Source: Ignavibacteria bacterium (GTDB lineage: Bacteria > Bacteroidota > Ignavibacteria > Kapaibacteriales > Kapaibacteriaceae). Taken from it: 64,000 bases of DNA. The position numbers and the translations under genes are program-made. Below, piece by piece: positions 40,901 to 57,841 of this stretch (within the stretch, counting starts at the first letter, position 1; the number at the start of each line of letters is the position of its first letter). The stretch covers positions 919,262-983,261 of the forward strand of contig CP054181.1 of assembly GCA_015709655.1 (NCBI GenBank). The letters run 5' to 3'. Below the pieces are notes generated by a model, which saw nothing but the letters and a program-made list of their open reading frames with translations, was not told the DNA's origin and made no database searches.

Positions 40901-43165
40901 CAGGATGTACAATGGTCATGCATTGGCCGCGACTGGGATAATAACGATATTCACTTTTCGGTTCCCCTGGCGTTTATCGCAAATACCGATGCCACGGGTG
41001 CCAACTGTCAGAACTGGATTACAAACAAATACAAGACTGAGACCGCACGGCGCACTGTTAACATGGCGGGACAGTCTATAGCCTATGCTCCATCAGCAAA
41101 AAAAGGCGATACGTCACTGCCAACGAAAAATTTTCTGCTGAATGGCTATTATGCTCCCGGAGCCGAAATCAATACACCAAGGTTCTTCCCCTCAATGCAG
41201 AAGAGTTCCGTTGTCATCGAGAAGGTTGCGGAACTCATGGGCACGAATGAACCACGAGAAATTGAGTACTTCCTATCCTATCTGAAGTATGCTTTTGAAA
41301 AGGGAACACCACCCGGACAGGGGGCTGCTTCGGTCAGCCTCGATGCGGTGAAAAATACTGCCCAGGTGTTCGTAAACCTCCTGTCGCCACTTGAAATGAA
41401 TTTTTCGGCACAGTCCGATAAGTCCGGCGGCATAGCAGCACCAAGTATCGGGATTGGCGCACTCTCTCGGCTTATGGGTCCGATCCCGGGTGACTTCACG
41501 TTGGTCGGCAACTTCGCTGACGAAGCAGCCAAGATTGCGGCAATGGCTGACAAGCTCAAGAATGCGGTAGTTGCAGCAGGGAATTTTGATCCGATGCAGT
41601 ACTTCAGCGACCTGCTGAATGCTAAAATTCTTGGCGATATCACGCTCCAGGATGTTCTCAGTTTCGTGATGGACGTGCTGAGCAATTTGGATAAAATGCC
41701 TGGTCTTGATAAAAAAGATGATTTTGGCATGGGCGACAAACTCAAGGAAGGAATGTCGAACGCCGATGTTGCCTCCATGCTGCAAGAGGTTAAGGATCAG
41801 GTTGACAAGATAAAAGATACTGCCTCGGAAATTGCTGATGGCGTTAATCAGGAAGTCAAAGAAGCCAAACAAGCAGCTCTGGATGTTGCCGCCAGCGTTA
41901 AAAATCAGATTGATGAAGCAGTATCGAAACTTAATTCTGGCGCCGAAGAAATTAAAAAGTATATCGAAACCGAGATTAAGCAGTGGAAGAAGAAGGTTGA
42001 AGATGCAGCCAACGAGCTGAAATCTGAAATCGAGAAGGCTCTTAAACCTCTGAAAGAAGCCGGTAACGAAGCATATAAAATGTACGAGGAAGCTAATAAT
42101 GCCCTTAACATTCTCAAACAAGGTCTGAACTTGGTTTTTGAATGGCAGACGGAAATCAAGAGTACACCGGGTGACATTCTGGTGCCACTGCATTCCTCAC
42201 CCTCCAATGATTCCGATAAGGCAATCCTGTACCTTAAAGCTGAAATAAAGAAGGGCCTGGATCTAAATCCGCCCGAAGTTCTGCTCTTTGGTTCAATCTC
42301 GAACTTCATTGTGAACCTCATTGGTACCGGTGCAGCACAGTTCCTGATTATTAAATTCAACCGCATCGCTCTCTCGGTAAAGATCGGCGAAAAACCAAGT
42401 ATCGATCCGGATATCGAAGCGGTGGAATTTGCCGGCCCCCTCACGTTTATCAATAAACTTAAAGACCTGATCCCAAGCGGTGGCAGTGCCGGCGGCGTTG
42501 GCTTTTCGTTCTCGTTCGACGTTCAACCATCGGGGGTATCGGCTACACTTACAATTACACTACCCAACGTTACCGTTGGAGTGTTCTCATTACAGAACCT
42601 AAGCTTCCTGATGCGGGTTACCATCCCGTTTGACGGACGACCATTCTCGGCATATTTCGCGTTCTGTACCAAGGACAATCCGTTCCGCATCACCATCATG
42701 ATGTTTGGCGGCGGTGGCTTCTTTGGTATCGAAATCACGCCTAAGGGTGTGCGGATGCTCGAAGCTGCCTTTGAGTTTGGCGGCAACTTCTCGTTTGACT
42801 GCGGCGTTGCTTCCGGTGGTGCCAGTGTCATGGCCGGGATTTACTACAAGCTGGAGATAAAGCAGGTTGATGGCAAGGACGTTGAGCAAAGCGAACTAAC
42901 CGGTTACTTTAAACTCACCGGCAATCTGAGTGTACTCGGGCTGATCAGAGTATCGCTGCTATTCGAACTTAAGCTTACATGGCAAGGAAACGGGAAGGTA
43001 TTTGGTACTGCAACAATCGAGGTTGAGATCGAAATCCTCTTCCTCAGCTTTAGCGTCGGCGTTACCGTGGAACGCCAGTTCAAGGGTGACGATGCTGACC
43101 CAACCTTTATTGACCAGTTCCCGGAACAACCTATGTGGCTGGAATATTGTAACGCATTTGCATAA
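37916..43165 (+). CDS. Very large exported protein (1749 aa), unknown, with Tat-like signal and central coiled coil
   Basis: I do not recognise a family. Residues 38-59 read SRRQALGIAGTLSLAAAPLASA, a twin-arginine-like signal preceded by a 37-residue extension. Residues ~70-520 are strand-rich, ~540-640 contain Pro- and Lys/Gly-rich linkers (NPPLPPSAPK, KPGTSKAKKKVGGDSGG), ~690-1150 are mixed with many Trp and Tyr, and ~1280-1405 form a long charged helical/coiled-coil segment. From ~1425 to 1740 comes a glycine- and Phe-rich strand domain (MMFGGGGFFGIEITPKGVRM, GVASGGASVMAGIYYKLEI). An 11-bp gap and AAGGAG at its stop link it to the next large gene. The sequence gives no enzymatic motif. A structural or envelope-associated role is inferred only. 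Confidence 0.8.
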   Translation: MKRLLSFSNLVRNSTPGVAAEPVRLSGVAQYPGKYALSRRQALGIAGTLSLAAAPLASAVGQLFAARFSMVRRKQLVAFQVAGKDRWVINPASFDGTPVLTVQESSNAIQLQLRSAFFPGTTIPADFTAVIEGTTKSSLTLTLNKLNISFKAPFVPWLLDQDVPEVEVPKTLSIVCGNAGITIGSGARFQMRPSWTLSAKGTVRAEVHTAAGTAERNAVRADIQLNPTHSMLVPAAKLASLVRLHRGNNSWDVPVHVVDTPSWDVVAHNDAFETLTIESSTDDRQAYLYEGPTDGKVAVHVHELNATLPLRNPRYGYGIGADGVHEAFVANYSESPNWVIVGGVSLELSDRAGIPPLQLERVGNRITKCVVAPGLRRYTIPIDGTITQPTVTKPGVHLALMPAGVYAMALPKPSYSLASLQLGTGTLNKGELKVGGQNIQNVEMASDDAASSVKGIGKAKMKAKYREFGPKFDLTLPGNPVVTVIRPDDLVVLSFEFAGLTINKGAGTFGGTGKLIVHFQPQHIAERAFFYVNGPDKPANPNPPLPPSAPKNSGVDEPIGEPPIESVLSNPSRLVFTTPNGYSGTYSIEGLLDWSKFTLRVSPSAKPPEPDFALAIMQTAFLGKYTLAEAALDPKPGTSKAKKKVGGDSGGSKQFQVGSANLMLKGSKAAVASNVNSKVKVQFQGHSDFSNMFTETFAAGYLAAQLAKPPIKVPASDETVIEYPYRVMLSPNVYAGWSHSAKPKTNTENRRTELWHTRLGVKHSDGTVSEEAAYFRTVRAIWSPDYGTDYLMPAKFKERPFRTSLNRRDRHEIVRLTSDYDMATKNLPVKVNQLMLTALGAWADMAGNWDPLGQDQLDVETWIQRGTQGRDHFVRVCYKGFLFPFGNRATLVKETERKFVRTPRGHMAAYLMQRLYIILRQPERDLPASGLDGMEYMGRGFPFRKITITTKTTPNLFSPDLQQTPAGSSPTLSIALGNGMGSNSLWPVFSNNGVNQDVQWSCIGRDWDNNDIHFSVPLAFIANTDATGANCQNWITNKYKTETARRTVNMAGQSIAYAPSAKKGDTSLPTKNFLLNGYYAPGAEINTPRFFPSMQKSSVVIEKVAELMGTNEPREIEYFLSYLKYAFEKGTPPGQGAASVSLDAVKNTAQVFVNLLSPLEMNFSAQSDKSGGIAAPSIGIGALSRLMGPIPGDFTLVGNFADEAAKIAAMADKLKNAVVAAGNFDPMQYFSDLLNAKILGDITLQDVLSFVMDVLSNLDKMPGLDKKDDFGMGDKLKEGMSNADVASMLQEVKDQVDKIKDTASEIADGVNQEVKEAKQAALDVAASVKNQIDEAVSKLNSGAEEIKKYIETEIKQWKKKVEDAANELKSEIEKALKPLKEAGNEAYKMYEEANNALNILKQGLNLVFEWQTEIKSTPGDILVPLHSSPSNDSDKAILYLKAEIKKGLDLNPPEVLLFGSISNFIVNLIGTGAAQFLIIKFNRIALSVKIGEKPSIDPDIEAVEFAGPLTFINKLKDLIPSGGSAGGVGFSFSFDVQPSGVSATLTITLPNVTVGVFSLQNLSFLMRVTIPFDGRPFSAYFAFCTKDNPFRITIMMFGGGGFFGIEITPKGVRMLEAAFEFGGNFSFDCGVASGGASVMAGIYYKLEIKQVDGKDVEQSELTGYFKLTGNLSVLGLIRVSLLFELKLTWQGNGKVFGTATIEVEIEILFLSFSVGVTVERQFKGDDADPTFIDQFPEQPMWLEYCNAFA

Positions 43166-43176
43166 GGAGTGATATC

Positions 43177-46100
43177 ATGGCAACAACAACACAAGAACTA
43201 CAGTTTACCGTAATCCCCTACGATGTTGATGTTCGTGACTCAGGAACATGGCTCCGCGCTGCAATCGTACTGACTCCGCGGCTTCAGGATGTTACATCGG
43301 CACCTACTACCTTAGCCAGTTATCCGGATTTTCTTGACTGGCCGGAATCATTAAAAAAACTGAGTTTTGAATTAGTTGTCAACGGGACTACTATACCCGG
43401 TAATGAGCTGACCGTGATTGACGAACAGCCCGACAGCGATGTCTGGAAAGCTGTATTCAATGAAAACACCGCTGTTAATCCCCATGGTGTGGGAGAGGTG
43501 TGGCCTAGCTACCAGATTATTAGTTTCTCCCCTCTGGAAGTTGACAGTGCCTTGCGTAGTACCTATACAAAACTTGTACAAACGTTTACAGACAAGACGC
43601 CTGTTTTTGAACCACCCAAAATTGCAAATGCTACTTTAAAGGTTAGTCAGACCAGCCAGCCACCCCTTATTGAGGCGCTGTCAGGTATTATACCAAGTAT
43701 GGATCAGGAGCAACAATTCAGGAATGTTCTGAACCAATGGGAAAAAAGTGGCCAGGCAGCCACGCAGCGAGCCATGCGCAACGAGGGCAATACCGAGTCA
43801 AGACAAAAACGAGGTACGGGCCAGAAGGAACGGATCCCAATCCCACAGAAAGTTGAACAAATGATGTTCCCGGTACCGCTGGGCGAAGGAATCACACCGG
43901 ATTCAAAAGCCGGCTCACTGCTCATGGCGGAACTGTATCATAAGGCTCGTATCTATCCAGTAGATACCGTCTCCGGGAAGAACAGAACGTACCGCGATCG
44001 GCGTCCGAAGATTAAAAAACCAACGTTCGACTTCCACCAGGTTGTTGGTGTGCTGCGTGAGTTTCCTGTAGTGATGCGACGCCTCGGCCTTACAATTCAT
44101 GTTGAATTTAAAGCCCCTTCATCACTTGGTAATGTGGGTAAAATCTCGTGTAACGTACAATGGAAGGTTGCCGCAGCCATACCAACAACCACCATCTCCC
44201 CGTTTACGCGTTACATTTTCAATGACTCCGGTGATAAACAATTTTGGCAGTTCCTGCCCAAGCCCCTTGACGGGTCTGAAATCGTTGGTCCGCTCCTCTG
44301 CTTAAACAACCCCGAGCATTTTGCGGTTACTCAAATCGACCTCGACTCGTCAGCCTTGAAAATGCTTGGTTATATACGAAACATCTTGCACCGTTATTCC
44401 AAAACACGGGATACGCCAGATGCTTATTTGTCTGCCGAGCCCCCGGCAATTCGTGGTACGGGCTTGCAGCTCATTCGGAAGAACCGTGGACTAAAGCTTG
44501 CAAAATCCATTATTCGGAACAGCCAGCACTGGAATTCGCTGATTGCAAATAACACGCCGGTATTACATGCCGACGATGTGATGCGTGGCTATCGTATAGA
44601 TATTTACGATGAAACCGCAGGGACATGGCAAAGCTTGATGCGTAGGAACGCAACCTATACCTTCCCGCTTGCCGATGAACCACTGCGATCGGCCGGTATC
44701 AGTGTTACCGACGAAGAGGGCGTGCTTACCTTTGGAGCATCCCGACCGCCAGGAAGTGAAGACGATCCGTCCCTGCAACAGCTGTATGCACACGAAGTGA
44801 TTGCACAGTGGGAAGGCTGGTCGATTGTTGCACCGCCAATTGGACAGTTTATTGACAACGATGACCAGATTGCGCCCGGGAGCAATAAACAAAAGCCGCC
44901 GGCAGACTACGCCTACCAGGTTGAATCCGATATTTCAATCGTACCCAAATCCCTACCTCGATTACGGTACGGACGGAAGTACAGGATGCGCGCACGATTT
45001 ACCGATATCGCAGGTAACAGTGCCAAACTTTCAGATATGAATCCCGCTGACTTTACCTGCGCTACCGATGCCGTACGGTACGTGCGCTGGGATCCGATTG
45101 GTTCGCCAACACTTGCACTGCGCAATCATCCCGTTGAGGGCGAGGATATCGAAACCATGGTAATTCGGAACTACAATGCAAGCGAGGATGATACACAGGT
45201 TGTTCAAACTACCGAAACCTGTGAACGCCATTTCTTCCCGCCGCTGGCGTCAGTTCAGACTGCGGAACGGCATGGTCTGTTCGATAAAAGTCCAACGGAA
45301 GAGATGGTTGGCAACAACACAATGTTCGACCTGATTCGTGGGAAGGAGAAGTCGTTGCCACAGCGGTGGTACACACGAAATGAGAACGGCAACCTGCAAG
45401 CCGAAGCTACTGACAACACTCCGCCATCGGATCCCAATAAAAAGAAAACTGCCATAGCGTACCCGCTGGTACAAGCCGGCAGTACGGAGGTCCCGTATCT
45501 CCCTGATCCAATTGCCCGGACTGTTACCCTTAGCAATGTGCCCGGCTTAAACACAGGTGATATTATCGAGATCAATACCGGAGGGGCTACTCAGGCTACC
45601 GTGGCGATCGGAACATCGGTTGTTACGATTGGCTTTGATACCTTTAGTCAGTGGCCTGCGCTTTCGTCCATTTTACTCCGACTTGCCGAGGGGAACAAGA
45701 AACCCGTGTGGGAGGCTTCATCAAAAACGCTGACCCTTTTCCTTCCTGCCGGCGAACAGGCATGGATACAGTTTAGCAGCGGCCTTGGCGACAAGGATTC
45801 TGAGGCTAAACACAATCTGGATTTGCATGGTCATAAACAAACATTGATAGATGCCGGTCTGCCGGCCGTTCAGGTACATAACGCTGGTCGTGGATTAAAC
45901 TGGCTGATTTCGCCCGCACGTACTCTGCACCTTGTTCATGCTACTCAAAAGCCGCTTAAAAAACCAGAAATCGTCAAGCAAAGTCTAAAAAGACGTGTCT
46001 TCGGCGGTACCGACGCCACCATCAGCTTTAAACACATCAAGGTTGATGCCCGATCAACACAAAAGATAGATATGTTTACAGATTGGAAAATGTGGATCGA

Positions 46101-47481
46101 TGACGTCACAAAACCCAAGCCGGAAGAAGTTCCGTTCAGTACCTATTTCTTTGACCAACATTGCGAAAAACGTACCGACGATGTGCTGACAACGGAGCGC
46201 ACACAGGAATTTGGTGATACAAAATTCCGTCGGGTTACATTCTCACCGTTGGCAACAACCCGCTTTAAAGAGTATTTGCCAGTCTCCTTACGGTCAAACA
46301 AGGACAATCTTACTCGAAAGGGACCGGGTAAGGAAATGATCATACCCAGCACGAAGCGTCCGGATGGTGTTCACTTTCTTTATGCTGTTCCCTCGTTCCG
46401 CTGGGTTGAGTCCGAGAAGAAACTTGTAGGCAACGTCATAAAAAGTACACGTAAGGGCGGTGGAGTACGAGTGTACATGAACAGGCCGTGGTATAGTTCA
46501 GGCAATGGTGAACTGCTTGGTGTTGTGCTCTATAACAGCCAGCCGTTCAAGCCCTCAGCCGTCAATACCGAAACCGATAACGATGATAACAACAATTCTT
46601 ATAAGGGAATTAAACTCGGTCTGAGTGAATCCGGCAGCACCGGCTATGCCGATAAAATGGCTGGTATTGCCTCGATACTTGCAACGGGGAAACTCGAAAT
46701 TCCTGAGGAGTTGCATCCTTTCGTCACTCAATGGGGGCTTGACCCCATCTGGCTAAGTGAGCCCACCCCAAGCGATAACTCACCAAGAGTGCCAAATTTC
46801 CGCGATCCTGCCCTGGTACTGCCCAGTGTAAGTCTGGAAGAGGTCAACCCCAAGCAGCGCTTTACTGTGGTTGCGTTCGAGCCAAAGTTCGATGAAGACC
46901 GGAAACTGTGGTATTGCGATATCGATCTGGATCCGGGCGAATCTTACTATCCCTTTGTGAGGTTTGGTCTTGTTCGCGTACAGGAACATTCCCTAGCTGA
47001 CGCTGCTACCGGTAAGGATGTTTACTGCTCCCGCGTTACGCAAAGTACGTTTTGCCAGTTAGCTCCTGACCGCGAGGCTATGGTGAGGATTGAAGATGAT
47101 GGTAAGAATATCAGCATCCAGGTTACCGGCCATACCTACCGGACTAACTCTGTTGGACAATTGGGGAGTGAAATCGAGGTTGCCCTTGAACGACGTGACC
47201 CTGGTGCAGGAAGTACCGACCTCGGGTGGACGCGTGTAACACACCAACGGTTAGACAGAATTCATGCTGCCAATATCTGGGCTGGTATGATTGCATTAAA
47301 AGAACCTATTGGCAGCACCCAGTACCGCATGGTTATTACCGAGCTGGAATCATTCTTCTCCGATCCGGACGATCCGAGACGCCGCCAGACAAGTCTTGGT
47401 GACCCGAAGTCCGGCCAGGGTCCAATTACCTTAGAGGTTAGCAACCGCATCGTTTATGCAGATGTCCTGGAACTGTTCTAA
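43177..47481 (+). CDS. Very large protein (1434 aa), unknown, partner of the 1749-aa protein
   Basis: 1434 aa with a perfect AAGGAG site at 43164-43169 that overlaps the stop of the preceding gene, so the pair is co-translated. No signal peptide: the start is MATTTQELQFTVIPYDVDVRD. The N-terminal ~150 residues and much of the rest look like beta-rich, immunoglobulin-like modules; LRYGRKYRMRARFTDIAGNSAKLSD (near residue 590) resembles an Fn3/Ig-type strand pattern. A basic/Lys-rich patch lies at ~205-225, and a VTLSNVPGLNTGDIIEINTG segment near 785. No catalytic motif is recognisable. If its partner is exported, this one may be cytoplasmic or use another route. Function unknown. Confidence 0.8.
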   Translation: MATTTQELQFTVIPYDVDVRDSGTWLRAAIVLTPRLQDVTSAPTTLASYPDFLDWPESLKKLSFELVVNGTTIPGNELTVIDEQPDSDVWKAVFNENTAVNPHGVGEVWPSYQIISFSPLEVDSALRSTYTKLVQTFTDKTPVFEPPKIANATLKVSQTSQPPLIEALSGIIPSMDQEQQFRNVLNQWEKSGQAATQRAMRNEGNTESRQKRGTGQKERIPIPQKVEQMMFPVPLGEGITPDSKAGSLLMAELYHKARIYPVDTVSGKNRTYRDRRPKIKKPTFDFHQVVGVLREFPVVMRRLGLTIHVEFKAPSSLGNVGKISCNVQWKVAAAIPTTTISPFTRYIFNDSGDKQFWQFLPKPLDGSEIVGPLLCLNNPEHFAVTQIDLDSSALKMLGYIRNILHRYSKTRDTPDAYLSAEPPAIRGTGLQLIRKNRGLKLAKSIIRNSQHWNSLIANNTPVLHADDVMRGYRIDIYDETAGTWQSLMRRNATYTFPLADEPLRSAGISVTDEEGVLTFGASRPPGSEDDPSLQQLYAHEVIAQWEGWSIVAPPIGQFIDNDDQIAPGSNKQKPPADYAYQVESDISIVPKSLPRLRYGRKYRMRARFTDIAGNSAKLSDMNPADFTCATDAVRYVRWDPIGSPTLALRNHPVEGEDIETMVIRNYNASEDDTQVVQTTETCERHFFPPLASVQTAERHGLFDKSPTEEMVGNNTMFDLIRGKEKSLPQRWYTRNENGNLQAEATDNTPPSDPNKKKTAIAYPLVQAGSTEVPYLPDPIARTVTLSNVPGLNTGDIIEINTGGATQATVAIGTSVVTIGFDTFSQWPALSSILLRLAEGNKKPVWEASSKTLTLFLPAGEQAWIQFSSGLGDKDSEAKHNLDLHGHKQTLIDAGLPAVQVHNAGRGLNWLISPARTLHLVHATQKPLKKPEIVKQSLKRRVFGGTDATISFKHIKVDARSTQKIDMFTDWKMWIDDVTKPKPEEVPFSTYFFDQHCEKRTDDVLTTERTQEFGDTKFRRVTFSPLATTRFKEYLPVSLRSNKDNLTRKGPGKEMIIPSTKRPDGVHFLYAVPSFRWVESEKKLVGNVIKSTRKGGGVRVYMNRPWYSSGNGELLGVVLYNSQPFKPSAVNTETDNDDNNNSYKGIKLGLSESGSTGYADKMAGIASILATGKLEIPEELHPFVTQWGLDPIWLSEPTPSDNSPRVPNFRDPALVLPSVSLEEVNPKQRFTVVAFEPKFDEDRKLWYCDIDLDPGESYYPFVRFGLVRVQEHSLADAATGKDVYCSRVTQSTFCQLAPDREAMVRIEDDGKNISIQVTGHTYRTNSVGQLGSEIEVALERRDPGAGSTDLGWTRVTHQRLDRIHAANIWAGMIALKEPIGSTQYRMVITELESFFSDPDDPRRRQTSLGDPKSGQGPITLEVSNRIVYADVLELF

Positions 47482-47609: not shown

Positions 47610-48335
47610 ATGACATCAAGCAGAACACACCACCAAGAGAAAACGCTAAACTGCGATAAGTGCGGCGGTATGCATGATTCTATCTTCTGTGCAATGGGCA
47701 AGTTGGATCTTGGAATCCTTGCCGAGAATAAAACTATGCTTCACTTTAAAAAGGGGCAGGTGATCTTTCATCAGAACACTCACCCCCAGGGGCTGTACTG
47801 CGTGCACTCGGGCAAGGTTGTTATTCACTCCTACAACGACAACGGACGTAATCAGATTTTACGACTGGCCAAATGCGGAAGTATCCTGGGCTACCGAGCC
47901 TTATTTACCAACGAGCGCTACCATGTTTCGGCCACCGCAATCGAGGACTCCACGGTATGCTATTTCCCTCAGTCGGCATACCAGGAACATATTATTTCGA
48001 ATCATTCAGTGGCAATTGAAATTATCAAATTGCTGTCGGCTGACCTAAAAACAGCCGAGTTGAAAGCCATGAGCATGGTTCATAAACAGGTGCGCGAGCG
48101 GATCGCAGAAACCCTGATTGTATTGCGCGACTTTTTTGGAACCGAAGAAAATAACGTCACCTTAAACACCATCCTGTCCCGGGAAAACATTGCCGACATT
48201 GCCGGTGCAACTACCGAAACCACCATTCGGGTTCTCTCGGATTTCCAGAAGGCAGGGATTATAGAGCTAGCAGGGAAGAGTATCGGTATTCTTAACGTTA
48301 AAGAGTTGCTCAGGATTGCCAACCTTCCAGAGTAA
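47610..48335 (+). CDS. Fnr-like Crp-family regulator with candidate iron-sulfur cysteines
   Basis: 241 aa. N-terminal cysteines 15, 18 and 27 (CDKC, then SIFC) plus Cys117 in EDSTVCYFP correspond to the four 4Fe-4S ligands of E. coli Fnr (the last aligns with Cys122 in SMVCEIP), though the third spacing is C-x8-C rather than C-x5-C. Residues ~40-130 are the cyclic-nucleotide-like barrel, ~135-165 the dimer helix, ~185-235 the winged helix-turn-helix. The recognition helix reads GATTETTIRVL: the Glu and Arg of Fnr's ETISR are kept, its Ser is replaced by Ile. It is convergent to the nar operon and very probably its oxygen-responsive activator. Confidence 0.9.
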   Translation: MTSSRTHHQEKTLNCDKCGGMHDSIFCAMGKLDLGILAENKTMLHFKKGQVIFHQNTHPQGLYCVHSGKVVIHSYNDNGRNQILRLAKCGSILGYRALFTNERYHVSATAIEDSTVCYFPQSAYQEHIISNHSVAIEIIKLLSADLKTAELKAMSMVHKQVRERIAETLIVLRDFFGTEENNVTLNTILSRENIADIAGATTETTIRVLSDFQKAGIIELAGKSIGILNVKELLRIANLPE

Positions 48336-48427: not shown

Positions 48428-49153
48428 TTAATTGTTTGTTGCCTTCTTCCCTGCTGAGTGCGCGCGCGACACCCGAATCTCACGCCGGTTCCAGTTCCAA
48501 ATCACTTGCTGGTAACCGCGCCAGAGATAATCCAACGGATAAACCAGGAAGTGCATGAACCGCGTAAACGGGATAATGCCGATTAGGCAAAATGCCGATA
48601 CAACGTGGATTTTTAGTGACAGTGAAGTAACCCCGGCAATACCCTCGATTTGTGGGTCGAAAACAAAAATCGATCGCAGATATGGCGTTAAAAACGCGGC
48701 AAACCACGAGGATCCCCACCTGTCGAAGTAGGCAACAAGAACACCGGTTACCAACTGAGTCAGGAGAATAATGTACACCACAATGTCCATGGGACTCGTT
48801 ACCACATGTAACCTTCGTGTAGTAATTCTCCGATAGATTAGCAGCAACAATCCAATTAAAGATGCTAATCCGAATGAAAAAGCCGAAACTTCAAGAATGA
48901 TTAACCGTACCGGATCACCATTCCATGCCAGGACGGTTTTGGGAATCAGGAACGCCGTGAGGTGTCCGAAGAATACTATCATCAGACCCCAGTGAAACGG
49001 CTGGCTTGCCCAAAACAGTTCACGTCCTTCTAAAAATTGCGACGATATAGACGATACGCTGAACCCTTTTCTGCGATAGCGATAGATAGACCCTATAAGG
49101 AAAACAGCCAACGATACGTATGGCAAAACTGCGAATAACAGGTAGTTTGTCAT
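48428..49153 (-). CDS. narI: Respiratory nitrate reductase gamma subunit (cytochrome b)
   Basis: 241 aa integral membrane protein with five hydrophobic segments. It oxidises quinol at the membrane and passes electrons through two b hemes to NarH. The four heme-ligand histidines are in place: His54 and His64 (QPFHWGLMIVFFGHLTAF), His183 and His201 (SLKIHVVSAF, TRFMHFLVYP), matching E. coli NarI 56/66/187/205. Last gene of the operon, 2 bp after narJ and followed by a strong terminator. Confidence 0.95.
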   Translation of the reverse strand: MTNYLLFAVLPYVSLAVFLIGSIYRYRRKGFSVSSISSQFLEGRELFWASQPFHWGLMIVFFGHLTAFLIPKTVLAWNGDPVRLIILEVSAFSFGLASLIGLLLLIYRRITTRRLHVVTSPMDIVVYIILLTQLVTGVLVAYFDRWGSSWFAAFLTPYLRSIFVFDPQIEGIAGVTSLSLKIHVVSAFCLIGIIPFTRFMHFLVYPLDYLWRGYQQVIWNWNRREIRVSRAHSAGKKATNN

Positions 49154-49155
49154 AG

Positions 49156-49863
49156 TTAATCAAGTTTATAATTAGTGGCTATGGTATGCACTTCGGCGTT
49201 AATGCTGTTCTTTCCAAAAAACGCTTTGTGATGCTGACTTGTTAAAATCTCTTCATTACTGAGCGGAGCCGGAGCTTCGGCAAAATCTTCCCTAAGCACA
49301 CAAAGCAGCGACTCGAACACATTCCGGTACACGTTGCCCTGATTAAGCTCTTCCTGAATGATTGCATTGTGAAGTTTGCGCATCACCCGTATCTTTAGCT
49401 CAACTCTTGCCTGCGCAAACTCACCAATCATTTTTTCAACAGCAGGAATCACGATTTGTCCGGTTAGCTCATTCAAAAACACCTGGTTATGATGCTTGGT
49501 CAGTAAAACAAGTACGTTGCTGATATTGTCCGGCAAGTCGGTGCCACAGTCATTGTTAATCATAAGCTGCTCGTTCTGCATGTGTAGCAGAAAAGCACCC
49601 CGCTTGTAATCCTCACCAAATATCACGTACCCAAGGTCAAGATAACAGACCGGTTGAACATCGAACGTTTTAGTGTAGAGTTCTTCCCAGGCATCAGAAT
49701 CATGTTCACGGATATAATCAACAAAGGGGCTTAGCATCTGCGCCGCTTCCGGATAGACGTCCTGCAACACCTTGCTTGTTGACTCTACAAGCTCCCTGTA
49801 GTTATCCTGAGGATATCGCAGTAGATCAGCAAACAGATAATATAATTCTGTATTTTTCATCAT
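49156..49863 (-). CDS. narJ: Nitrate reductase assembly chaperone
   Basis: 235 aa, all-helical TorD/NarJ family protein needed for insertion of the molybdenum cofactor into NarG before membrane docking. The N-terminus (LYYLFADLLRYPQDNYRELV) and the core YTKTFDVQPVCYLDLGYVIFGEDYKRG are diagnostic of NarJ. Its start overlaps the narH stop by one base (TAATG), and it ends 2 bp before narI, so translation is coupled along the operon. Confidence 0.94.
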   Translation of the reverse strand: MMKNTELYYLFADLLRYPQDNYRELVESTSKVLQDVYPEAAQMLSPFVDYIREHDSDAWEELYTKTFDVQPVCYLDLGYVIFGEDYKRGAFLLHMQNEQLMINNDCGTDLPDNISNVLVLLTKHHNQVFLNELTGQIVIPAVEKMIGEFAQARVELKIRVMRKLHNAIIQEELNQGNVYRNVFESLLCVLREDFAEAPAPLSNEEILTSQHHKAFFGKNSINAEVHTIATNYKLD

Positions 49864-51353
49864 TACAGTCCTCGTGCAGGACGTTCCTTGAAGCCAAATC
49901 CCGTGTTGCCTTTCACATCGGCAGTGCTCTCGAGCATTTCGATGGATTCTTCGCGGTGAGCCGGCGGAATTACAAAGCGCTCGTCAAACGTAGCCAGCGA
50001 TGTTAAACGATAGATAGCATCGGCGGTTTCGGCATCAATACCGGTTTCCTGCATGGCTGTTGTGATTTCAGCCGATTCCAGATCGCCCACGGTTACACCT
50101 CTGCGGTGCAGCCGTACAGCCATCAGCCGTTTCATCACTTCGAAAACAGTGTCGGTATTACCGGCTGAGAATAGCGAGGCAAGGTATTGCATCGGCAAGC
50201 GGTTCTTGTCAACACCGTTCCACAGCGATTTACTGGTGGAGTCATAGACACCTTCGTTTACGGTAGCCATGGTTGGCAGAAGGGCGGGTACATAGAACAG
50301 ATTGGGAAGCGTCCGAAACTCCGGGTGCAGTGGCAGTGCCAGGTTCCAGACCTTCACGAATTTATATACTGGTGACTTCTGGGCTGCTTCAATTGTTGAA
50401 TCGGCAATACCGTTTAATCTGGCTTGTTCAATGACTTCAGGGTCGAATGGGTCAAGATAGATGTCAAGCTGTGCATCCACCAACTGGTCGTCGGGTGCTG
50501 ATGCAGCACTTTGAATCTTATCAGCATCGTACAGCATCACACCCAGATACCTGATCCGGCCAACACATGAATGGAAACATGCAGGGGCCTGACCCGACTC
50601 AAGGCGGGGATAGCACAGTACGCACTTTTCAGATTTACCGGTGTGCCAGTTATAGTAACTTTTTTTATACGGACATGCCGTAACGCACATCCGCCATGCA
50701 CGACAACGTTCCTGGTTGATAAGAACTACACCGTCCTCACCGCGTTTGTAGATTGCGCCGGACGGACAGGATGCCACGCACGCCGGATTTAAGCAGTGAT
50801 TACAGATTCTGGGCAGATAGTGGAACGTCATCCGCTCCAGCTGGAACATAGCCTCCTGCTCAGCAGGTGTTAATTGCTGCAGATTAACGTCCTGACGTGC
50901 ATAATCGGGTGAACCGCCAAGGTCGTCATCCCAGTTCGGACCCGACTGAACATCGATATGGTCACCGGTAACCAGCGAAACCGGCCGTGCTGTAGGCTGG
51001 TCATCGCCTTCGGGAGCATCAAACAGGTCTTGATACTTATAGGTCCATGGTTCATAATAGTCTTCCAGCACCGGCAGGTGGGGGTTATGGAAGATATTTT
51101 TAAGCCCCTTAAATTTCCCTGCCCCTTTCAGCGAAACAGAGTCGCCATTCTTCTCCCAACCACCTTTATAAATTTCCTGATCTTCCCATTTTGTCGGGTA
51201 GCCGGTACCTGGTTTGGTTTCAACGTTATTCCACCACATGTATTCTGCACCCTTACGGTCAGTCCAGATATTCTTACATGCAATAGAGCATGTGTGGCAC
51301 CCGATACATTTGTCCAGGTGAAAAACCATTGCGATTTGCGAGCGAACATCCAT
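49863..51353 (-). CDS. narH: Respiratory nitrate reductase beta subunit (iron-sulfur)
   Basis: 496 aa. Four cysteine groups carry the clusters: CIGCHTCSIACK near residue 16, CNHCLNPACVASC near 185, CRAWRMCVTACPY near 217, and CVLCYPRLESG then CFHSC. In the third group Trp takes the place of one Cys, as in E. coli NarH, giving a 3Fe-4S cluster. It relays electrons from NarI hemes to NarG on the cytoplasmic face. 19 bp separate it from narG. Confidence 0.96.
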   Translation of the reverse strand: MDVRSQIAMVFHLDKCIGCHTCSIACKNIWTDRKGAEYMWWNNVETKPGTGYPTKWEDQEIYKGGWEKNGDSVSLKGAGKFKGLKNIFHNPHLPVLEDYYEPWTYKYQDLFDAPEGDDQPTARPVSLVTGDHIDVQSGPNWDDDLGGSPDYARQDVNLQQLTPAEQEAMFQLERMTFHYLPRICNHCLNPACVASCPSGAIYKRGEDGVVLINQERCRAWRMCVTACPYKKSYYNWHTGKSEKCVLCYPRLESGQAPACFHSCVGRIRYLGVMLYDADKIQSAASAPDDQLVDAQLDIYLDPFDPEVIEQARLNGIADSTIEAAQKSPVYKFVKVWNLALPLHPEFRTLPNLFYVPALLPTMATVNEGVYDSTSKSLWNGVDKNRLPMQYLASLFSAGNTDTVFEVMKRLMAVRLHRRGVTVGDLESAEITTAMQETGIDAETADAIYRLTSLATFDERFVIPPAHREESIEMLESTADVKGNTGFGFKERPARGL

Positions 51354-51372: not shown

Positions 51373-54300
51373 TTAAAATTCTACTCTATCCATTTTGCGA
51401 ACTAAGACGTGTGTGTCGCGGTTGGCTCCAACCGGACCCCAGTAGTTAAAGTGGTACGAGAACTGACCGTAGCCACCAGTCATCAGGTTTGGCTTCAGGT
51501 GAACACGGGTGAAGCTGTTGTGTCCGCCTGCCCTGCGATTACCGCGCATCTGAGATTTGGGGACTGTGTATGTCCGTTCGGGTGAGTGATATACGATGCA
51601 GACTCCCTTTGGTATCCGGGCGCTTACGCAGGCACGCGTACAATACACGCCGTGGTCATTGTACACTTCTACCCAGTCGTTGTCCTTGACTCCAATGGCT
51701 TCGGCATCTTCTTCGCTCATCCAGCAGGGTTCAATGCCGCGCGATAAGGTAAGCATGCGCAGTGTATCACCGTAGGTTGAGTGGATATGCCACTTGCCGT
51801 GGGGTGTGAGCACGTTCAGCATTCGTGCCTTCCCATCGTTCACAGTTTTGCGGATATCGCCATACACCTGTGGTGTCGGCGATGGTTTATACGTAGTGAA
51901 GTGTTCGCCGAAGGCAATGTACCCTTCGTGATCCATGTAGGTGTGCTGCCGGCCTGTAATTGTACGCCACGGCACCAGGCGCTCAACATTGTACGAATAG
52001 GCGCAGTAGGCTCGACCGTCATTCATCAGACCTGACCACAGCGGCGAGGTATTATACCGGCGTGGCTGGGCTTGCAAGTCCTTATAGTCAATGCGTACGT
52101 CCTTACTTCCCTCTCCGAGATCGGCAAGAACAACACCGGTTTTCTTCTCCATGTTCTTGTAGGCACGGTCATTAAGCTTTCCGTTGGTCAGGGTAGACAA
52201 GGTAAGGACGGCGTTAACCGCTTCCACGTCTTCCTTCACCGATGGGTACTCAACACCATTTACTTTCTGCACGTGACGTTTGTCATGCAGCATTTCGTTG
52301 TACACATCATCAGCCATAAACGAAACACCGTGTGCGCCCAACGCATTCGTTTTGATATTCGGCCCTAACGATATGTACTTATTGTAAATCTGCGTATAAT
52401 CCCGTTCTACAAATACCAGCTTGTGCATGGTTTGTCCCGGTATCGGTTCGCACTCACCCTTACCCCAGTCGCGAATCGACGGTTGGGTAATTTCATCTGC
52501 CGAGTCGTGTGACAGTGCAGCATTGATGACGTCCTTCACCGGCTTGGGCAGGTAGGCCGGGGCAAGCTCGCTCACCTTCTTGGCAAGGGCCTGGAAAATC
52601 TGCCAGTCGGTTTTTGATTCCCAGACCGGAGCAACGGCTGCCGACAGCGGGTGAATGAACGAGTGCATGTCTGTAGAATTCAGGTCGGCCTTCTCGTACC
52701 AAGATGCCGTAGGCAGAACAATATCCGAGTACAGTGCCGAGGTGTCCATCCGGAAGTTAATGTCAACCACCAGATCCATTTTACCCTTAGGAGCCTCGCG
52801 CCAGATGATTTCATGTACGTGGGGCTTGGCAACTTCGTCGGCAATCTTGTTGTTGTGAGTTCCAAGATAGTGGTCCAGCATGTATTCATGCCCCTTGGCG
52901 CTGGACATTAGAGCATTACCACGCCAGATAAACCAGTTGCGCGGGAAATTAATTTCATTATCAGGGTCGGCTACTGAGTATTGTAACTCTTTTGATTTTA
53001 ATTTTTCAACAATGTATGTCCGGATCTCGTCATCAGTTTTTGCACCGGAAGCCACAGCATCGTTTACAACATCCAGGTTGCTCTTGTTATACTGCGGGTA
53101 GAAGGGCATCCAGCCGTTTCGTACCGACATTACCGTCCAGTCCGCAGAGTGCATACTTGAGTATTTGTTATCCTTCGGAACGCTGTTATAGTCCATCTGG
53201 TTATTGTCATATCTCCACTGGTCGGAGTTGATATAGTGCCAGATAGGGGCTTGCTGCAGTCGGTTCCCGGCAATCCAGTCCTTTGCAGCCATAATGGTTC
53301 CCCATGAATCCACCGGTGCAAGTTTTTCCTGACCAACGTAGTGGTTCATACCGCCACCATTAACACCGTTGCAGCCCGTAAGCAGTTGCGTCATAATTGC
53401 TGCGCGGTACATCAGGTTGCCATGGAACCAGTGGTTAATTGCGGCACCGACAATCACCATGCACTTGCCCTTGGTAACCTCGGCTGTTCCGCCCCACTCG
53501 CGGGCGAACTTTATCACGGTATCCCGACCGACGCCGGTAAAGATTTCCTGCCATGCCGGCGTATAGGCGTGCTTTTCGTCGTTGTACGAAGCCGGGTAAT
53601 CACCTGCAAGCCCCCTGCCAACGCCGTAATGTCCCATCGTTACATCATAAATCGTTGCAACCGGAATTTTCCCATTCAACGTTTCGATGAATTTAACCGG
53701 GACGCCACGCAGTGCCGTTTTATCAAGCCCGTACTCAATGAACTCAACCTGATACACATCATCGCTATGATCCAGTAATGACAGGGTTGGTTCGTACGGT
53801 GTATTATCAACAAAGTCTTCAAATTTCAGATTCCAGTTTCCGGCTTTTTCCTTAGCCCACCGGCTTCCCATCGTACCTTTCGGGCATACCAGGTTGCCGG
53901 ACTTTGCGTCGATATTTAACAGTTGCCAGTCACCGTTTTCCACGCCTGCATACTTGGCAATGCCATTGGCACGCACCAGGCGTCCGGCTCTGTAGTGATT
54001 ACCGTGTTTTTCCAGTTCAACCAGGAATGGTAAATCCGTATATCGTTTGATATAATCCATGAAATACGGAACTTGTTTGTCAACGTGATATTCTTTCAGG
54101 ATCACGTGGGTTACAGCCATCCAGAACGCACCGTCGGAACCGGCATGACACGGGATCCATTGGTCAGCGTGTTTGGCAACCATGCTGAAGTCGGGTGACA
54201 TCACCACGGTTTTTGTTCCGTTATGCTTGGATTCGGAGAAAAAGTGGATGTCGGGGGTCCGCGTCATTCCAAGGTTGGCACCCATCGACACGCAGAACTT

Positions 54301-54993
54301 TGAATTGTACCAGTCTGCGCTTTCGCACACGTCGGTTTGCTCACCCCATACTTCGGGGAATGCATTGGGAAGGTCACAGTACCAATCGTAGAAGCTAAGG
54401 TTTACGCCCCCCATCAACTGCAGGTAGCGGGCGCCGGCTGCATAGCTCAGCATGGACATGGCAGGAATCGGTGAAAAACCGATAATCCTGTCGGGACCGT
54501 ACTTCTTTACAGTATAAATGTTGGCAGCGGCAATCAGTTCAAGTACTTCATCCCACTTGGCACGCCTGAACCCGCCCTTACCGCGAGCCCACTGATAGCG
54601 CCGGCGTTTTTCGGGATCGTTCTGCAGGTTTTCCCATGCTTTCACCGGATCGCCGTTGGCTAATTTCTTTTCAACATTGAACAGCTCCATCAGAGCACCG
54701 CGGATCAGCGGATACTTTACTCGAATCGGACTGTACAGATACCATGAATACGAAATACCACGCTGGCATCCGCGGGGTTCGTACGGTGGCAACGTGTTTT
54801 CGAGCAACGGATAGTCCAATGCCTGTGTTTCCCAGACCACAATACCATCTTTCACGTGAATATTCCACGAACAGCCCCCGGTACAGTTCACACCGTGGGT
54901 GCTGCGAATAACTTTATCGTACTGCCATCTGTTACGGTAAAACTCTTCCCATTTACGGGTCTTGGGCGAAACAATATCTTCTATCCAGCTCAT
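51373..54993 (-). CDS. narG: Respiratory nitrate reductase alpha subunit (molybdenum catalytic)
   Basis: 1206 aa DMSO-reductase-family enzyme reducing nitrate to nitrite at a bis-MGD molybdenum centre. The N-terminus has the FS0 cluster motif [11 protein letters not shown] with a further Cys in [18 protein letters not shown], identical in layout to E. coli NarG (His plus three Cys). The molybdenum-ligand Asp is in [16 protein letters not shown]. No Tat signal is present, so this is the cytoplasm-facing Nar type. Length is normal for the family. It follows the diheme cytochrome gene by 30 bp. Confidence 0.97.
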
Positions 54994-55023: not shown

Positions 55024-55878
55024 CTATATGGATTTAATTTGTCGGTTAAAGATGTCGGCCTTTACTGAGAATCGCTTTCTTTTAAACCAAATCACGAGTA
55101 TCAACAAAAACACACAGCACACACCGATTCCACCACCCATGAGCAGAGGATTAAACGATGCAGCTTGCTGTTTTGCGCTTTGATCGCTGACCGTACGGAG
55201 GAATGCAATCAGATCAGCAATTTCCTGTTCAGTAAGCGGATGATCTGTATAGGTCTGGGCCATCGCCGGGAACGGCGGGGCACCTAAAATCCCTTTCAGT
55301 CCGGCGTCACCTCCCATGCGCTTGTACACTTCGGTAAGATCCTTAGCAAGAAGACCACCGGGGTGGACGTTTGCATAGTTAACGTTGTGGCATGACATAC
55401 AGGATGCGCCGCCATTAGCAAACCGATGCGAGCCCTCGAATAGCATCCGTCCGCGCTGAATCTGCTCCGGCGTAGCGTCATCGGATGCGTTGGCCACCGG
55501 GGCTCCGCCACCTTCGGCTGCTTCACCGCCCTTACTGCCAATGTAGGCGTAAATCGCAGTAATGTCGGCATCCGGTAGGTGCGACTGGTCAGGCATGATA
55601 AGCTCGCCAAATTCAGCAAAAATCGCCTTTGCATCGGCGTCACCGCTCGCAATCAGCGTCTGCGAACTCTTTGTCCACTTCATCAGCCATTCCGGAGAAC
55701 GCAGCGATGTGACGCCCTGCAGATCCGGGCCCACCAAACGTCCACCACCCACCGTATGGCAGGCACTGCAGTTGGTTTCGAAAAGCTCCTGACCGTTTTG
55801 AGCCATTAAAGGCACAGACAAGAACAGCAGCAGGCTGGCGATGATGGAACCGTGGTGTAAAACGCTATGCCGATTCAT
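55024..55878 (-). CDS. Membrane-anchored diheme cytochrome c of the nar operon (NarC-like)
   Basis: 284 aa. Signal peptide residues 1-26 (LLLFLSVPLMAQ). Two c-type heme sites: Cys37-Ser-Ala-Cys40-His41 and Cys160-Met-Ser-Cys163-His164. Between them is a Gly/Ala linker (GGEAAEGGGAPVAN). A single membrane helix near 243-265 (LLMGGGIGVCCVFLLILVIWF) and a basic tail anchor it with the hemes in the periplasm. As the first gene of the nar operon it resembles NarC of Thermus-type nitrate reductases, where a diheme cytochrome takes electrons from the complex. That role is inferred from position and layout. Confidence 0.88.
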   Translation of the reverse strand: MNRHSVLHHGSIIASLLLFLSVPLMAQNGQELFETNCSACHTVGGGRLVGPDLQGVTSLRSPEWLMKWTKSSQTLIASGDADAKAIFAEFGELIMPDQSHLPDADITAIYAYIGSKGGEAAEGGGAPVANASDDATPEQIQRGRMLFEGSHRFANGGASCMSCHNVNYANVHPGGLLAKDLTEVYKRMGGDAGLKGILGAPPFPAMAQTYTDHPLTEQEIADLIAFLRTVSDQSAKQQAASFNPLLMGGGIGVCCVFLLILVIWFKRKRFSVKADIFNRQIKSI

Positions 55879-55977
55879 GCTGCGGTCTCCTTACGATGGT
55901 TATATCCTACACACATAGTCACGTGGAATTAGTGTTGTACTACTCGTTTTATCCGTGTACAAAGTTGGAGCTCAGGA

Positions 55978-56026
55978 ATATCCTTTTATATGATGCACCT
56001 TATGGAATTTCATGATACAAATCATG
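55978..56026 (-). promoter_or_regulatory. Predicted Fnr-type class II promoter for the nar operon
   Basis: CATGATACAAATCATG (56011-56026) is a perfect palindrome, CATGAT-N4-ATCATG, sharing the TGAT-N4-ATCA core of Fnr sites. On the minus strand TATAAA (55990-55985) lies 31 bp from its centre, as expected when the activator is centred near -41.5. Predicted start near 55978, about 100 bp before the cytochrome gene. Confidence 0.65.
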
Positions 56027-56146
56027 TTTTTCAGGTAGTCATTTACCGTTTTGACAGGCATTCAAACCCGGACATCAAATCCGGTGGATACGGACCGGGC
56101 TCATGCTCACAACACGCTTCCATACGCAAATCAAACGGCTTCTAAA

Positions 56147-56196
56147 CATGATTTACATCATGAAATTAATTGATATCAACCGTTAATATTGAGGAA
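56147..56196 (+). promoter_or_regulatory. Predicted Fnr-type class II promoter for narK
   Basis: CATGATTTACATCATG (56147-56162) has the same CATGAT-N4-ATCATG arms as the nar-facing site. TAATAT (56184-56189) is centred exactly 32 bp downstream, the class II geometry. Predicted start near 56196. The palindrome TTGATATCAA at 56170-56179 lies between them. Confidence 0.65.
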
Positions 56197-56320
56197 TCAA
56201 CTGCTGATAGCGAGTTTTTTGTTTCGCCTGTTCAATGAGTATTTCCGGAGCTCCCCATCCGTGTTCCCGGACCTACGTCACGCACACAGTAGCGAAGATG
56301 TTTTCTGGAGACACACACCA

Positions 56321-57841
56321 ATGAATCAACCGTCATCAGGTCTTGCCACACGCACACTCAGCGTTACCACACTGGCATTTACAATCTGCTTTGCCGTGTG
56401 GATGATAAACGGTGTCCTTGTTACGTTTCTTGTCAATAATGGTATTTACAAATGGAGCCCTGTCCAGGTTGGCTGGCTGCTGGGTGTGCCGGTTCTTGTG
56501 GGGTCGGTACTTCGTTTGCCGGTAGGTATCCTTACCGATAAACTGGGCGGACGCTGGGTAATGGGCTCTCTGTTGATGTTATGCGCAGTTCCGGTGTACC
56601 TGCTCTCGTATGCCGATGACTATACATCGTTTCTTGCTTTGAGTTTTTGTTTTGGTATTGCAGGCAGCACATTTGCTTCGGGCGTGGCCTACGTCTCACT
56701 GTTCTTCCCAAAGAATAAACAAGGCACTGCCCTTGGCATCTTTGGCGCCGGCAACATGGGTGCCGCACTCACCACCCTGTTCGGACCAACACTGCTGGAA
56801 TACGTTACCGATCACGGTGCCAATCTTGCAGCATGGCGTTCCATGCCGCGTTTATATGCAGCTCTACTGGCTGCTACGGGTATTGTGTTCTTCCTGCTGA
56901 CAAAGAATGCCAGGCCTACAGCGGTGAAGTCAATGCGCGATCGGTTACTGCCTCTTCGTGAAGCACGCGTATGGCGCTTTGGCCTGTATTATTTTGTGGT
57001 GTTCGGAAGCTTCGTGGCTTTGTCGCAGTGGCTTATTCCGTACTATGTTAATGTGTATTCCATGCCTATTGTGATGGCCGGCTTTATGACAACTGCCTTT
57101 AATCTTCCATCGGGTGTTATTCGGGCAGTTGGAGGCGTGCTTGCGGACAAAATCGGAGCTCGCATGCTCCTGTATGTAGTGTTCGGCGTATGCATCGTTT
57201 GCCTGTTCCTGCTTTTCTTCCCGCGAATGGAAATTAATGCTCCGGGACAAGGAATTATGGCAACACGTGCCGGCACGGTAACCGCTGTTTCGGATAATGA
57301 GATTCAGATTGGTGATACCAGGTACGCAATCCAGCATAAGGGAGATACCGACAAGAATATTAAAATCCGCTTTGGTATCCACCACGATACCGAAGGCTTC
57401 CTGATACTTCCTACTGCATCTACATGGCAGACGCCACTGGTAAAAGCGGGCGACACGGTCACGAAAGGACAACTCATTGCAAAGGGTAATACGCAAATTT
57501 ACTTTCAGGCAAATGTGTGGATATTTACTGCCCTGGTCTTTATTATCGGCTTGATGATGGGACTGGGCAGCGCCGCCGTGTTTAAGCATATTCCAACCTA
57601 TTATCCCAACGATATTGGTTCCGTTGGTGGCATCGTGGGTGTGTTAGGGGGCTTGGGCGGATTTATCGATCCTATTGTGTTTGGCTATCTGCTCAGTGCC
57701 ACCGGCGTATGGACCACAAGTTGGATGATGCTTGCCGGCCTGTCTATCATCAGCATTGCACTGATGCATTTTGCCATCTCACGCAGTAAGGTTGGCGTTT
57801 ACACGGTACCCGATGAAGCAATTAAACAAATTAAATCGTAA
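56321..57841 (+). CDS. narK: NarK-family nitrate/nitrite transporter with inserted barrel-sandwich-like domain
   Basis: 506 aa from the ATG at 56321 (GGAG at 56307-56310). A major facilitator protein with about 12 membrane segments and NarK motifs GVPVLVGSVLRLPVGILTDK, LGIFGAGNMGAA and, in the second half, NDIGSVGGIVGVLGGLGGF. Residues ~303-393, between two membrane helices, form an insert of about 90 hydrophilic residues: GIMATRAGTVTAV then AGDTVTKGQLIAKG, the strand pattern of biotinyl/lipoyl-like barrel-sandwich domains, without a modifiable lysine motif. It probably imports nitrate or exports nitrite. Divergent from the nar operon and under the same predicted activator. Confidence 0.9.
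   Translation: MNQPSSGLATRTLSVTTLAFTICFAVWMINGVLVTFLVNNGIYKWSPVQVGWLLGVPVLVGSVLRLPVGILTDKLGGRWVMGSLLMLCAVPVYLLSYADDYTSFLALSFCFGIAGSTFASGVAYVSLFFPKNKQGTALGIFGAGNMGAALTTLFGPTLLEYVTDHGANLAAWRSMPRLYAALLAATGIVFFLLTKNARPTAVKSMRDRLLPLREARVWRFGLYYFVVFGSFVALSQWLIPYYVNVYSMPIVMAGFMTTAFNLPSGVIRAVGGVLADKIGARMLLYVVFGVCIVCLFLLFFPRMEINAPGQGIMATRAGTVTAVSDNEIQIGDTRYAIQHKGDTDKNIKIRFGIHHDTEGFLILPTASTWQTPLVKAGDTVTKGQLIAKGNTQIYFQANVWIFTALVFIIGLMMGLGSAAVFKHIPTYYPNDIGSVGGIVGVLGGLGGFIDPIVFGYLLSATGVWTTSWMMLAGLSIISIALMHFAISRSKVGVYTVPDEAIKQIKS

Follow-up and report, generated by a model that had tools for sequence, protein, structure and literature searches.

The window, the whole 64-kb stretch of DNA that was analysed, carries a nitrate reductase operon on its minus strand, in which a c-type cytochrome gene precedes narGHJI, and a divergent gene run that opens on the plus strand with a narK-family gene. 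The two operons are separated by 442 bp of intergenic DNA (55879–56320), and a Crp/Fnr-family regulator gene adjoins narI convergently. The features considered here are:

47610–48335, plus strand: Crp/Fnr-family regulator of 241 aa, with CDKC...C, C64 and C117 and the recognition helix TTETTIRVLSDF
48428–49153, minus strand: narI (TIGR00351)
49156–49863, minus strand: narJ-like chaperone gene (TIGR00684 at 39.6 bits, below the cut-off of 59.35)
49863–51353, minus strand: narH (TIGR01660)
51373–54993, minus strand: narG (TIGR01580)
55024–55878, minus strand: gene for the c-type cytochrome, at the head of the nar operon
55985–55990, minus strand: -10-like TATAAA of a putative cytochrome c-narGHJI promoter, starting 28.5 bp from the operator centre
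56011–56026, no strand: putative palindromic operator on the nar-operon side, CATGAT-ACAA-ATCATG (CATGATACAAATCATG), exact
56147–56162, no strand: putative palindromic operator on the narK side, CATGAT-TTAC-ATCATG (CATGATTTACATCATG), exact
56184–56191, plus strand: -7 box TAATATTG of a putative narK promoter, 5/6 to TAnnTTTG, starting 29.5 bp from the operator centre
56321–57841, plus strand: narK-family nitrate/nitrite transporter with its ATG at 56321 (TIGR00886 at 188 bits, cut-off 311.7; PF07690)

An initial annotation of this DNA had pointed to two identical-arm palindromes of the form CATGAT-N4-ATCATG in the gap, and both proved exact. They are the only 0-mismatch matches in the 64-kb window, where up to 2 mismatches gave 7 matches as compared with 3.46 expected, and the only perfect 6-4-6 palindromes in 55879–56320; no palindrome with 6-bp arms was found there at the other gaps from 0 to 11. 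Among 20,000 dinucleotide shuffles of the 442-bp gap, 2,319 contained at least one 6-4-6 palindrome, 132 contained at least two, and none contained two with the same arms. The opinion that the pair was unlikely to be a product of chance was thus borne out.

The same annotation had proposed a genome scan for CATGAT-N4-ATCATG before anaerobic genes, and this expectation failed. The 2.84-Mb genome contains three exact copies, the two nar/narK boxes and CATGATCATGATCATG at C1:1081609, which adjoins transposase-like ORFs, and the strict form thus marks no promoter region but that of nar/narK. Strict CATGAT was rejected as a regulon marker: among 13 matches with at most one mismatch, the 10 that carry one mismatch all lie in or over ORFs, and 1 lies near the transposase-like ORFs. 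TTGAT-N4-ATCAA occurs twice in this genome, both times in ORFs. The core TGAT-N4-ATCA has 70 matches versus 11 for the reversed pattern, a count that is not decisive, since what matters is the outer bases and whether a match lies in coding DNA. For ATGAY-N4-RTCAT there were 11 matches versus 13 for the reversed control, and the ATGAY form is therefore without overall genome excess; the 11 places comprise the two nar/narK boxes, four intergenic sites, three in ORFs, one at an ORF start and one near transposase-like ORFs.

The regulator encoded at 47610–48335 scores above the Pfam cut-offs for a cNMP-binding-like domain and a Crp HTH (PF00027, 78.1 bits; PF13545, 52.1 bits; PF00325, 26.8 bits), and among known structures its sequence matches PDB 5cvr and related entries at an E value of about 1e-37. 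Against the NCBIfam Fnr subfamily (NF008365) it reaches 79.7 bits, below the cut-off of 228. Alignment with Aliivibrio FNR matched the CxxC motif and the cysteine preceding the dimerisation region, and set T-E-x-x-I-R in the recognition helix against V-E-T-I-S-R in FNR. The main contacts of E. coli FNR to TTGAT are, according to PMC4505428, Glu209, Ser212 and Arg213. Equivalent positions were compared in 81 clade sequences, two from this genome and 79 from the 80 named loci that are the best 80 of 182. In this set, Glu209 is present in 81/81 and Arg213 in 80/81, whereas Ile takes the place of Ser212 in 79/81; Cys15, Cys18 and Cys117 each occur in 81/81, and Cys64 (78/81) and Cys27 (66/81) are less constant. 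Because the box is not TTGAT, Ser212 is replaced and the NCBIfam score is below the cut-off, the regulator is filed as Fnr-like and not as FNR proper. Four proteins in the genome pass the Crp HTH Pfam cut-off. The nearest of these to the window regulator is a paralog, 54% identical; two other Crp-family proteins are an EVVTR-type protein at C1:1829310 and another at C1:2585241. Within the genus, the nearest regulators are 33–39% identical to that of the window, and no NarG match at E 1e-200 was found among the genus relatives.

Named Bacteroidota loci around the regulator's relatives (best 80 of 182) were scanned in their intergenic DNA for any perfect palindrome with 5-bp arms and gaps of 0–10, with no motif assumed. 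At gap 4, ATGAT was the commonest arm (24 of these 80 loci) and ATGAC the third (13 of 80). In the same best 80 of 182 loci, ATGAY-N4-RTCAT accounts for 90 intergenic sites in 49 loci, whereas 200 shuffles averaged 1.37 sites and never exceeded 5, and is missing from 31; TTGAT-N4-ATCAA has 0 intergenic sites, and TGAY-N4-RTCA cores have A/A as their outer bases 90 times and T/T twice. The annotation had presented ATGAT as a departure from the Fnr half-site TTGAT. Its Fnr-type reading stands; the notion of an oddity peculiar to this promoter does not, since ATGAT is one form of ATGAY, fits the half-site of a Bacteroidota Fnr-like clade and, as far as these loci indicate, is apparently common to many Bacteroidota. 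ATGAY sites often lie directly 5′ of the regulator gene, narK, ric/RIC-like hemerythrin genes or nar-linked cytochromes, and further genes 3′ of such sites, judged by their N-termini, are presumably hemN, ccoN and ferredoxin genes. Two MAG loci (L118 and L116) have cytochrome-narGHJI adjoining a clade regulator, with a narK-like gene divergent; the narK/cytochrome gap contains one exact and two one-mismatch ATGAY-like sites in L118 and three one-mismatch sites in L116, and in both loci such sites occur on the narK side as well as on the cytochrome side.

Two other palindromes recurred in the intergenic DNA of the best 80 of 182 loci, where 24 loci have ATGAA-N1-TTCAT and 23 have TTTGT-N5-ACAAA; these are possibly shared elements of related Chitinophaga.

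A weight matrix made from 101 sites from elsewhere, none of them from the window, scored the nar-side box at 19.2 and the narK-side box at 19.9 (training median 18.8); elsewhere in the 64 kb the highest score was 8.9. These scores are not fully independent, because the training sites were chosen with a pattern that the window had suggested; the motif-free palindrome search with 5-bp arms is the unassuming check on the matrix.

The palindromes had also been credited with -10-like hexamers 31 and 32 bp away, and these are in place: measured centre to centre from its own palindrome, TATAAA (minus strand) lies at 31 bp and TAATAT (plus strand, 56184–56189) at 32 bp. The -7 box of Bacteroidota is TAnnTTTG. 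In relatives, 116 intergenic sites had a gene no more than 260 bp away, and removal of near-duplicates left 101. Counted downstream from the site centre, TAnnTTTG starts at 29.5 bp in 13/101 as an exact match and in 40/101 at 5/6 letters or better, as compared with a mean of 1.14 and a maximum of 10 (at 51.5) for 58 other offsets at the same stringency. This commonest register in relatives is shared by the narK site. The nar-side TATAAA is 5/6 to TATAAT and 3/6 to TAnnTTTG, which makes it a poor Bacteroidota -7 box, and its start at 28.5 misses the common register by one base. In a class II Crp/Fnr promoter the site is centred some 41.5 bp before the transcription start and the -10 box lies 32 bp from that centre. 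The class II geometry that had been claimed for both promoters is made probable by the observed 31 and 32 bp, by the presence of one site per operon and by the recurrence of the narK register, with the nar-side -10 as the exception. A weaker second TAnnTTTG peak lies 51.5 bp from the centre, 22 bp past the main register (10/101 at 5/6 or better); the sites concerned are perhaps class I.

narG was found in 23 of 395 genomes searched in the phylum. A 0-mismatch box lies 5′ of nar in 2 of these 23, this genome and one other (G179), and the same two are the only narG genomes with a clade regulator. The best regulator match in the other 21 has an E value of 5e-19, with one genome having none at 1e-5, and 2 of the 21 have a one-mismatch nar-upstream site. 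The 21 narG loci without a 0-mismatch box, first meant as orthologous promoters, served as a control. A further 48 loci, taken as controls from narG genomes that have no clade regulator and including other Crp/Fnr genes, contain 0 ATGAY sites in 40.9 kb of intergenic DNA. Whole-genome ATGAY counts in 51 genomes overlap between carriers and non-carriers of the regulator (for example, 56 vs. control 5 in G231 and 43 vs. 4 in G023); such counts do not separate carriers because coding background dominates.

The four intergenic ATGAY sites found elsewhere in this genome span 27.4 kb (2,586,002–2,613,438). They precede a Crp-like gene, a saccharopine-dehydrogenase-like gene and the paralog of the window regulator, with one lying between bcrC and a MobA-like gene. 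The region codes for anaerobic benzoyl-CoA degradation. Its products that exceed NCBIfam cut-offs are 6-oxocyclohexene-carbonyl-CoA hydratase, 6-hydroxycyclohexene-carbonyl-CoA dehydrogenase and benzoyl-CoA reductase subunit C; dienoyl-CoA hydratase, BcrA, BcrB and 4-hydroxybenzoyl-CoA reductase fall below theirs. At 28.5–30.5 from the site centre, TAnnTTTG is matched at 5/6 for the Crp-like gene, bcrC and the paralog and at 4/6 for the dehydrogenase-like gene; the four ATGAY sites in ORFs or at an ORF start, read in both orientations, reach at most 4/6. In its relaxed ATGAY form, the motif picks out further putative anaerobic promoters in the same genome. The site at the paralog gene is 65 bp 5′ of the start, a position that suggests autoregulation, and no box was found upstream of the window regulator gene, where the best matrix score was 1.1. 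In Rhodopseudomonas, the Fnr-like protein AadR activates the genes for anaerobic benzoate degradation. Like AadR, the paralog is of Fnr type and tied to benzoyl-CoA degradation genes, although the phylum differs and the likeness is one of analogy alone. The occurrence of a benzoyl-CoA cluster with a second Fnr-like regulator in a genome of the Bacteroidota phylum (C1:2582000–2616000; L200, L201) is an observation in its own right, and a Flavobacteriales MAG (L168) likewise has bcrABC homologs close to a clade regulator.

Taken together, these data argue, with a probability that we put at roughly 0.8, that the palindromes serve as operators of a dimeric, Fnr-like activator with oxygen-controlled class II action, most likely the 47610–48335 product or its 54% paralog. 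At low oxygen, the conserved cysteines of the regulator would hold an N-terminal iron-sulphur cluster, and the cluster would enable the protein to form dimers that recognise ATGAY-N4-RTCAT. With its centre near -41.5, each box would be a class II site, and cytochrome c-narGHJI would be driven from one of them and narK from the other. The 47610–48335 protein would bind both boxes, sense oxygen and activate transcription, and its Ile for Ser212 would accompany A for T in the half-site. The window regulator and its paralog are not told apart by this reasoning because both carry the same key residues.

The main competitor, which we consider unlikely, is that another Crp-family protein, such as those at C1:1829310 and C1:2585241, or an NO-sensing DNR/NnrR-like factor binds the boxes, so that the signal would be NO or carbon and not oxygen. 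A genome with four proteins above the Crp HTH cut-off offers candidates, the EVVTR-type protein still has a hydroxyl residue where FNR has Ser212, and PMC8510549 places Crp/Fnr homologs from Ignavibacteria, Flavobacteriales and Saprospiraceae near MalR, with carbon sensing predicted. However, ATGAY boxes concentrate at clade regulators and were absent from all 48 control loci, other Crp/Fnr genes included; the box is also missing in narG genomes that have other Crp/Fnr proteins and no clade member. The invariance of the FNR-type cysteines Cys15, Cys18 and Cys117 in the clade (named sequences from the best 80 of 182) likewise speaks against another regulator.

That the boxes are repressor operators or sites for a non-Crp protein, with the -10 spacing incidental, seems distinctly improbable. 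One box per operon would also suit a repressor, but under repression the site would be expected to overlap the -7 box or to follow it downstream, whereas the 40/101 sites with a -7 box at +29.5 have class II activator geometry. An origin of the palindromes by chance is less credible still: it would accord with the lack of promoter enrichment of the strict CATGAT string elsewhere in the genome and with a relaxed ATGAY pattern no commoner than its reversed control, but not with the failure of 20,000 gap shuffles to yield two same-arm palindromes, nor with two matrix scores more than 10 above the next best in 64 kb.

FNR boxes and their control of nar are textbook knowledge, and the Fnr-like activator favoured here resembles FNR of E. 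coli and Aliivibrio in family and fold, as judged by sequence, in the CxxC motif, the Cys122-equivalent and the equivalents of Glu209 and Arg213. Its sites share with E. coli FNR boxes the TGAT core, the N4 spacer, the apparent class II distance and nar and narK as putative targets. Unlike in E. coli FNR, the clade has Ile at the Ser212 position and an outer half-site A in place of T; a third N-terminal cysteine is present in 66/81 and Cys64 in 78/81 sequences (named ones from the best 80 of 182), the sites pair with a TAnnTTTG -7 box, and the regulator scores below the NCBIfam Fnr cut-off. DNR, NnrR and HcpR are also Crp/Fnr-family regulators of N-oxide genes with FNR-like N4 palindromes (Rodionov 2005, PMC1274295). 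According to that paper, they are without the FNR cysteine motif and have TTGAC or GTAAC motifs, whereas clade regulators carry FNR-type cysteines that are invariant. The recognition-helix residues that Rodionov 2005 links to motif bases are equivalent to CRP 180 and 181, positions other than Ser212 (PMC1274295). PMC8510549 deals with nitrogen-cycling MAGs from an anammox reactor. It treats as MalR-like carbon sensors the Crp/Fnr homologs encoded in Ignavibacteria, Flavobacteriales and Saprospiraceae and states that there was no evidence for Crp/Fnr control of denitrification in these groups; those homologs belong to the same phylum and family as the regulators described here.

A broader proposal, which we put forward tentatively and at somewhat less than even odds, is that much of the Bacteroidota uses a recoded FNR, with Ile for Ser212, an ATGAY-N4-RTCAT box, an activator matched to the TAnnTTTG promoter of the phylum and Cys64 maybe as the remaining cluster ligand, and that two copies in this genome would split nitrate respiration (CATGAT) and benzoyl-CoA degradation (TATGAY). 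Neither an ATGAY or Bacteroidota Fnr motif nor a Bacteroidota-wide ATGAY code linked to Ile at the Ser212 position was found in the open-access literature, to which the search was confined, and a claim of novelty extends only that far. Bacteroidota include common denitrifiers and heterotrophs of anammox systems, and a usable motif with a promoter register would allow the phylum's oxygen regulons to be predicted from sequence. The ATGAY clade is also a natural test of how a single recognition-helix residue alters the Fnr box.

Two further features of the window were observed. Just before the regulator gene lie two adjoining, very large ORFs, 37916–43165 (1749 aa) and 43177–47481 (1434 aa); the former has only weak, ZorA/Leo coiled-coil-like PADLOC matches (E about 2e-4), and the latter has no PADLOC match. 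NarK contains about 100 extra residues between transmembrane segments (57290–57658), a stretch unusual in nitrate transporters that resembles a barrel-sandwich (lipoyl-like) domain; its Pfam match to RnfC_N is weak (E 0.0018) and falls below the cut-off.
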